Origin: Klenkia sp. PcliD-1-E
GTDB lineage: Bacteria > Actinomycetota > Actinomycetes > Mycobacteriales > Geodermatophilaceae
Assembly: GCF_024124375.1 (NCBI RefSeq)
Contig: NZ_JAMXRZ010000028.1
Location: forward strand, 1-39,628
Reading direction: 5' to 3'
Length of the DNA: 39,628 bases
The first letter of the stretch is position 1. Each line of letters opens with the position of its first letter. Shown piece by piece: positions 24,320 through 35,358 of the stretch. The position numbers were made by a program, and so were the translations under genes. The notes beneath the pieces were generated by a model. It did not search any database and was not told the origin of the DNA. It worked only from the letters and a program-made list of their open reading frames with translations.

Positions 24320-25723
24320 TCAGCTGGTGGCGGAGGTGCGCCAGCCCTGCTGGTAGGTCTCCCGCGCCATGGCTGCGTACGGCGTCGGGCTGACGATCGC
24401 CCGCACCTTGAACTGCTCGTGCGGCTCGACGGTGGTCTTGCCCGAGCCGCCGTCCGGCTCGCCCCACACCACGGTCACCTCGGCGCCCAGCGGGACGTCG
24501 GGGGCGACGGTGGCCAGCGACAGCGCGGTGCGCTCGTTGGCGCTGTAGCCGGTGAACATCGAGACGCCGACGACGGTGCCGTCGGCGTCGAGCACGGAGT
24601 CGAAGTTCGACGAGCCGTAGTTGGCGTTGGGCAGGTCGAAGAACTGGTAACCGGGGCCCGGCCGTACGGGGGAGGCCAGCAGCTCGGCGACGTCGTCGGC
24701 GTTCCACGCCAGGGTGACCTTGCGGCGCTGGGTCGCGGGGTGGATGGCCTCCAGGGCGTCGCGGCCGATGAAGTCGTGGTCGAACTTCACGAAGCTGCCG
24801 TACCCCAGCTCCCAGGGGTTGGTGTAGTAGTCGGCGATGTCGGCGGAGACGAAGCTGCCGGCCAGCGCGTTGGTCGCCTCGTAACCCTGGGCGGGCAGCC
24901 ACTCGCGGTAGGCCCGCAGCTCCTCGCCGTCGTAGATGGCCGGCAGCGGCGAGGGGATCCAGCCCGACTCCAGGGTGTTGCAGCTGTAGGCCCGCGCGCC
25001 GGCGGGCTCCAGACCGAACTCGGCGCCGGCGTCCAGGATGGCCTCGCGGACCTTGTCGTAGCTGGCGTACGGGCCCCAGATCTCCAGGCCGGGCGCACCG
25101 GCCATGCCGTGGCGGAGGGTGCGGATCTCCTCGCCTGCGATGGTCATGGTGCCCATCCGGAAGAACTTGACCTTGTCGACCGTGCCGCCGTTGACCTTCT
25201 CGATGACCTCCCACGCGCGGGGGCCCTGGATCTGGAAGCGCCACACGTCGCGGGTGACCTGCTTGCCGTAGGGGCGGGACGGCGACCGGGGGTCGTTGCG
25301 GACGTCGACGTCGTAGCCACCGGTCTCGGCCTGGAACATCAGCCAGTTGGCCACCGGCGCCCGGCCGACGTAGACGAACTCGTCCTCGGCCAGGCGGAAC
25401 AGGATGCCGTCGCCGATCACGCCGCCGTTCGGGGCCACCGGGACGAACTGCTTGGCCGAGTCGACGGCGAAGCTCGCCGTGGAGTTGATGCCGGTGTCGG
25501 TGAACAGCTTGAGCGCGTCGGCGCCGGAGACCCACAGGTTGGTCATGTGGTGGGACTGGTCGAACAGCACCGCGGTCTGCTGCCACGCCTTGACCTCGCG
25601 CCGGAAGTTGGTGAACTCCGACGGGACGACGGGGTAGATGTAGGTGCCCAGCTGCGAGTTGCGCAGCAGGTCCACCGTGCTGCCCGACTGGTCGAGCACG
25701 TCCTGCAGGTTCTTGGCGGTCAT
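24320..25723 (-). CDS. ligM: Tetrahydrofolate-dependent aryl O-demethylase, LigM type
   Basis: A 467-residue GcvT-fold enzyme that moves the methyl group of vanillate or 3-O-methylgallate to THF, giving protocatechuate or gallate plus 5-methyl-THF. It follows the Sphingobium SYK-6 LigM sequence, as I remember it, along its whole length (that protein is 471 residues). Shared segments include LRNSQ..Yx[87 protein letters not shown] and [16 protein letters not shown]. This closeness excludes an ordinary glycine-cleavage T protein, as does the absence of gcvH or gcvP nearby. ATG 25723 begins the conserved region. It is divergent from ligAB. Confidence 0.92.
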
Positions 25724-25758
25724 GTCCTGCCCGTTCTGGTCGCTGGGTCGTCGTCTCG

Positions 25759-25764
25759 ACCCTA
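25759..25764 (-). promoter_or_regulatory. Putative -10 element of ligM
   Basis: TAGGGT on the minus strand, about 35 bases before the ligM ATG, embedded in GCGTCCCTAGGGTCG, a context nearly identical to that before the TAXI gene. Confidence 0.35.
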
Positions 25765-25810
25765 GGGACGCCGGACCGGCGCCGGGACCGTGGAATGGCG
25801 GCACCCCGGC

Positions 25811-25822
25811 GTCGGATGCGAC
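25811..25822. promoter_or_regulatory. Candidate operator in the ligM-ligA divergent region
   Basis: GTCGGATGCGAC is a short inverted repeat (GTCG-N4-CGAC) midway in the 183-bp region between ligM and ligA. No regulator gene is adjacent, so the binding protein is unknown; chance occurrence is possible. Confidence 0.2.
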
Positions 25823-33233: not shown

Positions 33234-33245
33234 GGTCTCTCCGTT

Positions 33246-33950
33246 TCAGGGTGCGAGTCGGTCGAGCAGGGCGGCGAGCTCGTCGGGGGCGGTGACCATC
33301 GCCTCGTGGCCGGTGGCGATCTCGTGCACCGGCCAGCCCTTCGCGCGGGCCCGGTCGGCCTGGCCGGCGAACACGCGCATCCAGTCGGTGCACTCCACGA
33401 ACGCCGCGGGCACGGCGTCGACGGCGCCGGTCAGCCGGAGCGGGTCCAGGTAGGTCCTCCACGGGTGCGGGGTGAGCTTGGGGGTCAGCCAGTCGACGTC
33501 GGCCTGCTCGGTCACCCCGAGGACCGAGAGCTTGCGGACGGCGACCAGCCAGCCGAAGCCCTGCTGCTCGGCCGACTCCGCCCAGTGGTGCGCGACGGTG
33601 TCGGGGAGCAGGTCGCGGGCGCACTCGCCGTCCTCGCCGACGAAGGCGTCCAGGTGCACCCGCAGCGCGATGCGGTCGGGGACCCGGTCGGCGACCGCGG
33701 TGACCACCTGCCCGGCGTAGCTGTGCCCGACCAGCACGACGTCGCGCAGGTCGAGGGTCTCCACCAGCCGGACGACGTCCTCGACGTGGGTGTCGAGCCC
33801 GACCATCGGGGTGAGCAGGTGTGCCCGCTCCGACAGGCCGGTGAGGGTGGGGGCGAGCACGGCGTGCCCGGCGGCGCGCAGCGGCTGGGCCACCCGGTCC
33901 CAGCACCACCCGCCGTGCCAGGCCCCGTGCACCAGGACGAACGTGCTCAC
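33246..33950 (-). CDS. Alpha/beta hydrolase
   Basis: A 234-residue alpha/beta hydrolase of the esterase/hydroxynitrile-lyase-like branch. FVLVHGAWHGGWCW forms the oxyanion loop, VGHSYAG the nucleophile elbow (Ser), and the C-terminal TGHEAMVTAP holds the catalytic His. GTG 33950 overlaps the aldolase stop (GTGA). In this operon it could hydrolyse the methyl ester produced when 3-O-methylgallate is ring-opened, or a lactone such as 2-pyrone-4,6-dicarboxylate, replacing the amidohydrolase LigI. Neither role can be proven from sequence. Confidence 0.87.
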   Translation of the reverse strand: MSTFVLVHGAWHGGWCWDRVAQPLRAAGHAVLAPTLTGLSERAHLLTPMVGLDTHVEDVVRLVETLDLRDVVLVGHSYAGQVVTAVADRVPDRIALRVHLDAFVGEDGECARDLLPDTVAHHWAESAEQQGFGWLVAVRKLSVLGVTEQADVDWLTPKLTPHPWRTYLDPLRLTGAVDAVPAAFVECTDWMRVFAGQADRARAKGWPVHEIATGHEAMVTAPDELAALLDRLAP

Positions 33951-34636
33951 GCGTCGCCGTCCACGTAGGTGACCCCGAGCCGTTCCAGGGTGGGGCGCAG
34001 GTCGTAGAGGTCCAGGCCCAGCACCCCGCTCCGGAACTGCTCGCGCTTGGCCTCCTCGTTCGCCTCGCGCTTCGCCGCGGCGGCCACCACGGCGGGGACG
34101 TCGGCCCGCGGCACGCACATCACGCCGTCGTCGTCGGCGACCACGGCGTCCCCGGGCGTGATCAGCCGGCCCGCGACGACGACCGGCACGTTGACCGAGC
34201 CGGGCACGGCCTTGGCGGTGCCCTGGGCGTGCACCGCGCGGGACCACACGGGGAAGCCCATCGCGGTCAGCTCGGCGACGTCGCGGACGCCCGCGTCGGT
34301 GACCAGGCCCAGCACGCCCCGGGCCTGCAGCTGGGTGGCGAACAGCTCGCCGAACATGCCGTCGGTGCTGCGCGAGGTGGTGGCGATGACCAGCACGTCG
34401 CCGGCCCGGCACTGCTCGATGCAGGCGTGCACCATCAGGTTGTCCCCGGGGTGGGAGAGCACGGTGACCGCGCGGCCGGCGATCCGGGCGCCGGGGTAGA
34501 TGGGCCGCAGCTCGGGCCCCACCAGGCCGGTGCGCCCGGCCGCCTCGTGCGCGGTCGCCACGCCGGACCGCGCCAGGGCGGCGAGGTCGTCGGGGTCGGG
34601 ACCCTTCGAGGTGCGGACGACGACGTGCCGGCTCAC
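33947..34636 (-). CDS. ligK: 4-carboxy-4-hydroxy-2-oxoadipate aldolase (RraA fold)
   Basis: A 229-residue RraA-like protein, the fold of class II CHA/HMG aldolases (LigK, GalC) that split 4-carboxy-4-hydroxy-2-oxoadipate into pyruvate and oxaloacetate. The pyruvate-binding GDNLMVHACIEQCRAGDVLV and GELFATQLQARGVLGLVTDAGVRD (substrate Arg and metal Asp of the GVRD stretch) are intact, followed by W/FPVWSR and GDAVVADDDGVM. The C-terminal helix AKREANEEAKREQF is typical of the aldolases and absent in RraA RNase regulators. GTG 34636 overlaps galB by four bases, supporting the pathway assignment. Confidence 0.92.
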   Translation of the reverse strand: MSRHVVVRTSKGPDPDDLAALARSGVATAHEAAGRTGLVGPELRPIYPGARIAGRAVTVLSHPGDNLMVHACIEQCRAGDVLVIATTSRSTDGMFGELFATQLQARGVLGLVTDAGVRDVAELTAMGFPVWSRAVHAQGTAKAVPGSVNVPVVVAGRLITPGDAVVADDDGVMCVPRADVPAVVAAAAKREANEEAKREQFRSGVLGLDLYDLRPTLERLGVTYVDGDA

Positions 34637-35358
34637 CGGAGCTCCGACCCGACGGAGGGGAAGGTGCGGGTGAAGGCCTCCGCGTGGGTGACCTCGGCGG
34701 GGGCGCCGTTGCGGCGGGCCTGCACGCCGCGGCGGACCCCGAGGTCGGTGTAGTAGTCCACCAGGTGGCCCTGGCCCCCGGCCATGCAGCGCATCGCCTC
34801 GAGCTTGCGGTCCCAGACGGGGGTGACGTCGAGCAGCAGGTCGGGGACGAACCCGCACACCTCGGGCTGGTGCGGTTCGTACTGGAACACCTGCGCGGCA
34901 CCCAGCGGCGTCGTCGTCCGGTCGTGGCCGTGGGCCTGGGCGACCATCCGGGTGCGCAGGGTGGTGGCGTGGGCGAGGTCGTGGTCGGTGTTGTACGGGT
35001 CCCGGGCCACGTGGGTGAGCAGGACGTCGGGGGAGTGCTCGCGCAGGATCCCGACCAGCCGGTCCTCGGCGGCCGTGTCGACGCGCAGCGGGTAGTCGCC
35101 GAGGTCGAGGAACTCCACCGTGGCGCCGAGCACCTGCGCGGCGTTGCCGGACTCCTCGCGGCGGGCGTCCTTGACCCCCTGCAGCGTCATGCCCTCCCGC
35201 TTCCACAGGCCCTGGGACTCCCCGCGCTCGCCGAAGCTCAGGCACACCACGTGCACGGCGGCGCCGCGGTCGGCGTAGAGGGCCAGCGCGCCTCCGGCGC
35301 GCCAGACGAAGTCGGCGGCGTGCGCGCTGACCACCAGCACGGACCCTGCGTCGGGCAT
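34633..35358 (-). CDS. galB: 4-oxalomesaconate hydratase, GalB type (PIG-L/LmbE fold)
   Basis: A 241-residue LmbE/PIG-L-fold metalloprotein. The deacetylase motif AHPDDE is replaced by SAHAADFVWRAGG, the form found in GalB, the Pseudomonas putida hydratase of 4-oxalomesaconate. CLSFGERGESQGLW, LDLGDYPL, THVARDPYNTDHDLAH (metal ligands) and YEPHQPEVCGF complete the pattern. It makes the substrate of the LigK aldolase encoded next. ATG 35358 follows GAGGAG. It is first in an overlapping five-gene operon ending with the SDR. Confidence 0.9.
   Translation of the reverse strand: MPDAGSVLVVSAHAADFVWRAGGALALYADRGAAVHVVCLSFGERGESQGLWKREGMTLQGVKDARREESGNAAQVLGATVEFLDLGDYPLRVDTAAEDRLVGILREHSPDVLLTHVARDPYNTDHDLAHATTLRTRMVAQAHGHDRTTTPLGAAQVFQYEPHQPEVCGFVPDLLLDVTPVWDRKLEAMRCMAGGQGHLVDYYTDLGVRRGVQARRNGAPAEVTHAEAFTRTFPSVGSELR

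Follow-up and report, generated by a model that had tools for sequence, protein, structure and literature searches.

Positions 24320 to 35358 of contig NZ_JAMXRZ010000028.1, from the genome of Klenkia sp. PcliD-1-E, a soil actinobacterium, carry an island of 13 genes (ligM to galB) that probably serves the catabolism of methoxylated aromatic acids, above all of the syringyl type, by a linear 3-O-methylgallate (3MGA) route. The whole contig, 39,628 nucleotides long, was analysed and is called the window below. As the initial annotation had proposed, the locus brings together tetrahydrofolate (THF)-dependent O-demethylation, class III ring cleavage and folate recycling in one compact actinobacterial gene set, and this is supported by the present analysis.

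Where a dehydrogenase and a lactonase would be usual, the island looks to hold two other proteins: an alpha/beta hydrolase (ABH) that is a probable methyl esterase, and a 91-residue protein of the muconolactone-isomerase fold (MI). It is the cassette formed by ABH, MI and the dioxygenase LigAB, with its bearing on the ring-cleavage substrate, that is the notable part of the island; the occurrence of LigM in an actinobacterium is less so. The island is real and recurrent in actinobacteria: the same gene set is met again in other genomes, and is thus not a chance assembly.

Ring-cleavage cassette

Both subunits of the dioxygenase are recognized by their family profiles. LigA scores 122.1 bits with PF07746 and 101.6 bits with TIGR02792, slightly below the cut-off of 108.6; LigB scores 232.9 bits with PF02900 and, against solved structures, 337.5 bits with 1b4u and 256 bits with gallate dioxygenase. 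LigK reaches 314.1 bits with TIGR02798 (cut-off 304.5), and the best solved relative of the PIG-L protein is the 4-oxalmesaconate hydratase 5cgz (259.9 bits), which identifies it as GalB.

ABH matches PF12697 with 69 bits. Its model, built with 16 rows and of mean pLDDT 83, is closest to the Paenibacillus hydrolase 6tj2, for which the entry title draws a comparison with a tobacco protein; the top 50 structures include tobacco SABP2 (a methyl salicylate esterase), Arabidopsis MES16 and hydroxynitrile lyases, and the sequence search agrees. The predicted fold of ABH is therefore that of the SABP2/methylesterase/hydroxynitrile-lyase group. All 16 rows share S77 (in the motif GHSYAG), H215 and E186, the last being a candidate for the third residue of a triad.

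MI scores 105 bits with PF02426. It stays under the cut-off of the CatC muconolactone isomerase equivalog (83 against 130.6 bits), the fold being the same: its model (pLDDT 92) superposes with a TM of about 0.9 on the 5-chloromuconolactone dehalogenase ClcF and on muconolactone isomerase. All 12 rows carry a glutamate at the position equivalent to E27 of ClcF, which is the residue altered in entry 3zo7.

The linkage of these genes was followed in the family Geodermatophilaceae, with one locus per genome and 20 kb around LigM in 30 genomes and the window, so that the counts are lower bounds. LigA and LigB lie near LigM in 29 of the 31 genomes, ABH and MI in 28, MetF in 28 and the DesA-like enzyme in 26; in most of the family's loci abh-mi-ligA-ligB form a single run. 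A solute-binding protein is found in 23 of 31 and PabB in 15 of 31; GalB, FolP and a close short-chain dehydrogenase/reductase (SDR) occur in 3 of 31 each. A response regulator is present near LigM in 28 of 31 and, missed by this tabulation, in the window itself.

We then counted LigB genes by their neighbours. After two of 66 LigB-like frames had been dropped (below 150 bits) and identical ones merged, 57 remained; neighbours were accepted within 12 kb at 50% identity for MI, 60% for ABH and 50% for LigC and LigI. ABH and/or MI accompany 46 of these LigB genes without LigC or LigI, LigC and/or LigI accompany four without ABH or MI, none has both sets, and seven have neither. Three of the latter (L090, L103 and L142) are on contigs of 10-12 kb. 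In the LigB tree, which has long branches and comes from a quick search, 52 LigBs (the 46 and six of the seven) are separated by a long branch (SH-aLRT 94, unstarred) from the four of LigC/LigI type, on whose side the Sphingobium SYK-6 and Novosphingobium proteins are also placed.

The cassette also occurs behind another demethylase. Within the family, every one of the 31 genomes with LigM also has a close MI (71% or more), and so do 6 of the remaining 81. Five of these six have no LigM over the cut-off (L071-L074 and L076), and there a VanA-like Rieske oxygenase is followed by abh, mi, ligA and ligB; these oxygenases are 31-33% identical to VanA, and no LigM is found in the fetched stretch. 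In the sixth, the cassette is interrupted by the contig end. The presence of ABH-MI-LigAB behind a Rieske oxygenase as well as behind LigM indicates that ABH and MI are tied to ring cleavage and not to the demethylase. The Rieske-linked LigBs do not make a single clade. Since the identity figures given in this work come from several query sets, they differ between comparisons.

The SDR of the island has close copies in Rhodococcus opacus (66%) and in two named loci, L100 (61%) and L127 (53%). Such copies are thus confined to Klenkia, Rhodococcus and a few named loci, and most layouts of the family are without one.

Two enzymes of the LigM family

LigM scores 882.2 bits with the curated equivalog model NF047885, 300 bits over its cut-off of 580. 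It aligns with the structure of SYK-6 LigM (5tl4) across residues 2-466 with 715 bits and retains the tyrosine of the RAY motif, which we take to be the catalytic Tyr247. In the same structure search the best aminomethyltransferase chain, the next match outside LigM, gives 57 bits and dimethylglycine oxidase 35.5 bits. We therefore rejected an identity as GcvT, sarcosine or dimethylglycine enzyme; the grouping with such enzymes that would have undone the initial naming of LigM was not seen. In the LigM tree, from which GcvT rows were left out, LigM rows separate from DesA-like rows at 100/98.

The second LigM-like protein scores 568.7 bits with the DesA model (cut-off 800) and 487.9 bits with the LigM model (cut-off 580), so that neither is passed; the tree groups it with the DesA-like rows at 100/98. 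Judging by sequence, it is probably a syringate O-demethylase. In one genome of the comparison, G055, the LigM model has 13 matches, of which three beyond the island copy are over the cut-off, which suggests an organism specialised on methoxy or methylenedioxy compounds.

What the genome has and lacks

The LigC and LigI queries were taken from Arthrobacter keyseri and confirmed against PmdC (473.5 bits) and 4d8l (354.7 bits), respectively; a second amidohydrolase of A. keyseri is LigJ (2gwg, 571.2 bits). Where such genes occur, the two queries match at 66-88% and 70-71%. In the Klenkia draft genome, neither has a full-length counterpart: the best match of LigC is 36% identical over query residues 8-155 of 317, and that of LigI 31% over residues 31-192 of 312. 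Within the window there is no match to LigC, LigI or LigJ. PrpF (the LigU/GalD family, PF04303) is absent from this genome and from all nine genomes of the genus searched; it is present in 27 of the 31 LigM genomes of the family, often no more than tens of kilobases away on the same contig.

The genome also encodes the enzymes of 3,4-cleavage, PcaH (324.1 bits, cut-off 296.4) and PcaG (220.2 bits, cut-off 126.25), which adjoin a 4-hydroxybenzoate 3-monooxygenase on another contig.

Compared with the gene complement of protocatechuate 4,5-cleavage, LigAB and LigK are present and LigC and LigI are missing; judged by its genes, the island together with the genome is thus not a complete protocatechuate 4,5-pathway. 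The claim of a complete 4,5-ring-cleavage set is accordingly not supported, as no LigC, LigI or PrpF-type tautomerase was found. The linear 3MGA pathway of the type known from Pseudomonas NGC7 is matched by family or fold, not by orthology, in a LigAB-type dioxygenase, an alpha/beta hydrolase, an isomerase, GalB and GalC/LigK; the GalD/LigU (PrpF) tautomerase is lacking. Of the one-carbon recycling of SYK-6 type, the ligase LigH is missing and PurU stands in its place.

Folate and one-carbon genes

Island FolP reaches 283.9 bits with TIGR01496 (cut-off 162.6); the genome holds four Pterin_bind matches, this one included. FolD scores 142 bits with PF02882 and 90 bits with PF00763, and PurU 324.3 bits with TIGR00655 (cut-off 285.95). 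Formate-THF ligase (the LigH family, PF01268) has no match in the genome.

MetF is divergent, with 35.7 bits to its Pfam model (cut-off 24). Against structures, it gives 118 bits with 7xg9, presumably the SYK-6 MetF enzyme, and 26 bits with 1v93. A MetF scoring 314 bits sits on another contig, and a third, weak match of the methylene-THF reductase family (C202:18122-18673, 28.4 bits) shares its contig with a second Rieske match. The SYK-6 methylene-THF reductase, which goes with LigM, is reported to prefer the oxidation of methyl-THF (PMC13001107), and the methyl route of SYK-6 to consist of MetF, FolD and LigH (PMC6888825).

Genes of folate synthesis recur in related islands: pabB in 15 of the 31 family loci, folE, pabB and a folC-like gene in Rhodococcus, and dihydroneopterin aldolase in plasmid pLA3 of Novosphingobium. 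This suggests a high demand for the cofactor.

Distribution and origin

Of 112 genomes of the family, 31 encode a LigM above the cut-off; in a sample of 396 genomes from the phylum the number is 11, the window's own counted. A further scan of named organisms took the best 80 of 570 relatives of an actinobacterial query and gave 79 loci; all are from Actinomycetota, for example Streptomyces, Pseudonocardia, Nonomuraea, Microbacterium, Arthrobacter and Sinomonas, and the scan is uninformative on other phyla. On these profile counts, LigM is an established, if patchily distributed, gene of actinobacteria. The surprise expressed in the initial annotation at finding it in this phylum is justified only in part: the gene is not rare in the family, and a Micromonosporaceae case is already in print (PMC9296663).

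In 20 of the 79 named loci, mostly from Microbacterium and its relatives, LigM is accompanied by galB, ligK and prpF, with no LigB in the fetched stretch (L108-L110, L113, L114, L119-L126, L129, L131, L133, L135-L137 and L162).

For the LigM tree, 53 of 154 available rows were picked for spread. The 43 actinobacterial LigMs make one clade (100/98), beside the proteins of SYK-6, Novosphingobium and Agrobacterium (99/90), and three LigMs from proteobacterial plasmids are 61-66% identical to that of the window. In view of this separate clade and of these identities, we rejected a recent transfer from sphingomonads. Of the transfer first proposed for the locus, what stands is a likely movement among Actinomycetota.

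LigM and LigB of Klenkia both lie near those of Pseudonocardia and Streptomyces tagetis, the LigB set of eight being starred at 98. The order folD, metF, DesA-like gene, folP, ligB, ligA, ligM and regulator is common to Klenkia and Pseudonocardia xinjiangensis (L142), which differ by an added pabB in the latter and a DUF222 gene in the former; their DNA identity is 73-83%. A single Geodermatophilaceae clade of LigM gave p = 0.063 in the approximately unbiased (AU) test with 14 rows, and was not rejected at 0.05; with 13 rows, the G091 row having been omitted after the tree was inspected, AU p was 0.032.

Gene order and neighbouring genes

The genes named by the initial annotation, and their tight order, were all confirmed by profile or structure scores (Table 1). 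LigM is transcribed away from ligA, and the minus-strand run reads galB, ligK, abh, mi, sdr. Under the start codons adopted here, 4-base overlaps occur at six junctions (second LigM-like gene/metF, metF/folD, folD/purU, SDR/MI, ABH/LigK and LigK/GalB) and an overlap of 8 bases at ligA/ligB; the first of the six becomes 1 base if the metF ATG at 29470 is taken. To call the locus translationally coupled is thus fair as far as sequence goes.

Table 1. Genes of the island and its neighbourhood in the window, with the basis of each assignment.
Gene or product	Assignment	Position	Strand	Basis
ligM	THF-dependent vanillate/3-O-methylgallate O-demethylase	24320-25723	-	NF047885; structure 5tl4
ligA	alpha subunit, class III ring-cleavage dioxygenase	25907-26257	+	PF07746
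ligB	catalytic subunit, of the LigB group travelling with ABH and MI	26250-27107	+	PF02900; 1b4u; tree
folP	extra dihydropteroate synthase (folate supply)	27113-27985	+	TIGR01496
second LigM-family enzyme	DesA-like, probable syringate O-demethylase	28109-29470	+	DesA model below cut-off; tree
metF	divergent methylene-THF reductase, expected oxidative direction	29467-30345	+	Pfam; 7xg9
folD	methylene-THF dehydrogenase/cyclohydrolase	30342-31262	+	PF02882, PF00763
purU	formyl-THF deformylase releasing formate and THF	31259-32131	+	TIGR00655
sdr	SDR oxidoreductase	32242-32961	-	family profile match
mi	91-residue protein of muconolactone-isomerase fold, proposed to tautomerise the opened ring	32958-33233	-	PF02426; model
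abh	alpha/beta hydrolase, proposed to cleave the methyl ester formed on ring opening	33246-33950	-	PF12697; model
ligK	4-carboxy-4-hydroxy-2-oxoadipate aldolase	33947-34636	-	TIGR02798
galB	4-oxalomesaconate/KCH hydratase, PIG-L type	34633-35358	-	5cgz
branched-chain-type ABC transporter	ATPase and permease genes next to that of the binding protein	14866-18496	+	translations judged by eye
solute-binding protein	conserved neighbour	18400-19770	+	family match
sensor kinase	conserved neighbour	about 19880-21391	+	family match
NarL-type response regulator	conserved neighbour	21385-22071	+	family match

The binding protein, sensor kinase and response regulator (18400-22071) probably provide uptake and control. 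Between the two-component system and ligM lies a gene for a DUF222 protein (22180-23829, Pfam 36.9 bits), in a stretch that is matched in K. taihuensis, and further on, at 38394-38828, a small protein has a zf-UBP zinc finger (Pfam 50 bits).

An alcohol dehydrogenase (35461-36459) was considered as a member of the island and rejected: it lies near LigM in one of 31 family genomes, the window itself. It has no match within 17 kb past galB in the K. taihuensis stretch (L083), and several loci end before its position would be reached. A foreign base composition was likewise rejected, as the G+C content is 73.7% in 24320-36459 and 74.6% in the whole window, which gives no signal.

Proposed pathway and alternatives

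We propose that the DesA-like enzyme would transfer one methyl group of syringate to THF and thereby give 3MGA, while LigM would convert vanillate to protocatechuate, open to the 3,4-cleavage of the genome, and perhaps act on 3MGA too. LigAB would open 3MGA to the methyl ester CHMOD; ABH would hydrolyse this ester, with loss of methanol, to the dienol CHMA, and MI would tautomerise the latter. GalB would then hydrate the product, to be split by LigK into pyruvate and oxaloacetate. Methyl-THF would be oxidised by the divergent MetF and FolD, PurU would free THF and formate, and FolP would help with the supply of the cofactor. By chemical reasoning, MI could in principle protonate CHMA, the dienol of 4-oxalomesaconate (OMA), at the other carbon and so produce the GalB substrate directly: this would explain an island without GalD.

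Published work on Pseudomonas NGC7 offers a precedent. There, a LigAB-type enzyme is described to open 3MGA to CHMOD, whose methyl ester is removed by the alpha/beta hydrolase MgaC (PMC12314914); the isomerase MgaD acts on CHMA, and OMA is then processed by GalD, GalB and GalC, while an mgaC mutant accumulates 2-pyrone-4,6-dicarboxylate (PDC) in the same account (PMC12314914). More tentatively, Actinomycetota as a whole may possess a widespread, mobile and PDC-free 3MGA pathway, with an SABP2-type methylesterase and an MI-fold tautomerase for LigC, LigI and LigU, of which the type found in Klenkia and Rhodococcus would have no GalD, its own folate supply and an exit through formate.

Two other routes for the ring have to be weighed. 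The DesA-like enzyme and LigM could strip both methyl groups of syringate, LigAB open the resulting gallate to oxalomesaconate, and GalB and LigK finish the degradation, ABH and MI being employed elsewhere, for instance on an aromatic methyl ester. Each of these steps has a counterpart in the literature: DesA and LigM of SYK-6 carry syringate to gallate (PMC6888825), LigAB enzymes accept gallate (PMC8091115), and GalB and LigK/GalC are enzymes of the gallate pathway (PMC12314914). We nevertheless find this account unlikely, as it leaves the linkage of ABH and MI with LigAB unexplained; besides, the gallate and 3MGA routes may operate in parallel, as reported for Novosphingobium (PMC8091115). 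Quite unlikely is a classic protocatechuate 4,5-cleavage, with the SDR for LigC, ABH for LigI, and vanillate degraded through protocatechuate and PDC. It would agree with LigB scoring best against protocatechuate 4,5-dioxygenase, with the SDR present in the operon, and with the production of protocatechuate by SYK-6 LigM (PMC6888825). However, a close SDR accompanies LigM in only 3 of the 31 family genomes against 28 of 31 for ABH and MI; Rieske-linked cassettes have ABH and MI and no such SDR in the fetched stretch; LigBs from loci with LigC and LigI are placed across a long branch; and the genome has PcaGH.

As for the demethylases, a role of the LigM-like proteins on different methoxy or methylenedioxy substrates such as lignans and alkaloids, like that of SesA from Sinomonas and BrdA from Rhodococcus and Arthrobacter, is highly improbable. 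Actinobacterial THF-dependent demethylenases of the same superfamily have indeed been characterised, yet BrdA is only 26.7% identical to LigM (PMC5547118); LigM of the window stands 300 bits over the LigM equivalog cut-off and is linked to LigAB, LigK and GalB.

Several observations weigh against the linear 3MGA route. Gene identities, order and recurrence are observed, and from these we infer every substrate and every reaction. Among solved structures, LigB is closest to protocatechuate 4,5-dioxygenase; the second demethylase does not reach the DesA equivalog cut-off and is classed as DesA-like only; a Rieske oxygenase 33% identical to sphingomonad VanA is encoded elsewhere in the genome; and the SDR has no place in the proposed route. 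ABH is likened to MgaC of NGC7 by family only, its lid region is modelled at low confidence, and the hydrolase found beside DesA in sphingomonads matches it at 24% over 94 residues (E 0.007), so that kinship is not clear. The segregation of LigB loci has its own weaknesses. The LigC/LigI type is represented by only four genes (L070, from A. keyseri 12B, L112, L138 and L152). Among the loci with neither set, G055 has ABH and MI just past the 12-kb limit, L087 has neither in 21 kb, and L141 and L068 likewise have neither; a Phycicoccus metagenome-assembled genome (L089) has ABH, MI, LigM and the DesA-like gene with no LigB in 21 kb. Because the loci share ancestry and their collection started for the most part from LigM or MI, Fisher p-values computed from these counts overstate the association. 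Finally, the window is a contig of a 262-contig draft assembly of 99.9% estimated completeness, and absences are therefore not absolute.

In the open-licence literature, the catabolism of syringyl units has been worked out in sphingomonads and one Pseudomonas, and actinobacteria are little described; we found there no description of the whole island and nothing on vanillate demethylase in Geodermatophilaceae. The island offers two enzyme candidates for steps where PDC otherwise accumulates, one ring-cleavage cassette joined to two demethylase chemistries, and a compact gene set with cofactor supply that can be tested in a lignin-conversion strain. For these genomes, it further points to a need to check the neighbouring genes before LigAB is annotated as protocatechuate 4,5-dioxygenase.

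Comparison with known systems

In the literature, a LigM-type gene is recorded for a Micromonosporaceae metagenome-assembled genome, and DesA-like genes for Solirubrobacterales and Rubrobacter (PMC9296663). THF-dependent demethylenases are described from Rhodococcus and Arthrobacter, and one from Sinomonas is cited (PMC5547118). In Rhodococcus ruber R1, no vanillate demethylase of the THF-dependent type is reported to have been found (PMC9867520).

The NGC7 system (VanA1B1, MgaAB, MgaC, MgaD and GalDBC) resembles the island in its LigAB-type opening, alpha/beta hydrolase, small isomerase, GalB and LigK/GalC, and in having no LigI. It differs by the Rieske enzyme VanAB, where the island has THF enzymes, by an NTF2/SnoaL-type isomerase, where the island has the MI fold, and by GalD, a PrpF-type protein without counterpart in the Klenkia genome. 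The protocatechuate 4,5-cleavage systems, namely lig of SYK-6 and the cluster of A. keyseri 12B on pRE1, share LigAB and LigK with the island. The A. keyseri cluster (L070) has LigC, LigI and LigJ and no ABH or MI within 12 kb, the Klenkia window being the reverse.

With the ligM-metF-ligH operon of SYK-6, the island shares LigM and a second enzyme resembling DesA, together with FolD and a MetF of divergent type in the methyl route (PMC6888825). In contrast, SYK-6 uses the ligase LigH and the island PurU, their LigMs fall in separate clades, and a folate-synthesis gene is added in the island; where SYK-6 is reported to have the MarR-type regulator DesR, a two-component system lies near the Klenkia island. 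Plasmid islands of other sphingomonads (Novosphingobium US6-1 pLA3 and a Sphingobium TomTYG72 plasmid) are similar in their DesA-type gene, metF, purU, folD and alpha/beta hydrolase, with ligAB in pLA3; their hydrolase is, however, of another lineage, and an NTF2-like protein is found where Klenkia has MI.

The megaplasmid pRop44186_a of Rhodococcus opacus DSM 44186 (NZ_CP082159, L063 472236-513627), which is typed as mobilizable, has a counterpart for each of the 13 island genes (ligM to galB) as well as for the two-component pair. Identities to Klenkia are 80% for LigM, 66% for the DesA-like enzyme, 85% for MI and 70% for ABH. The gene order differs, an MFS transporter is present and no match to the binding protein was found; in addition, the Rhodococcus island includes folE, pabB, a Mur-ligase/folC-like gene, an FdhF/YdeP oxidoreductase and fdhD. 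On this megaplasmid, cofactor synthesis and possible formate oxidation thus travel with the demethylases.

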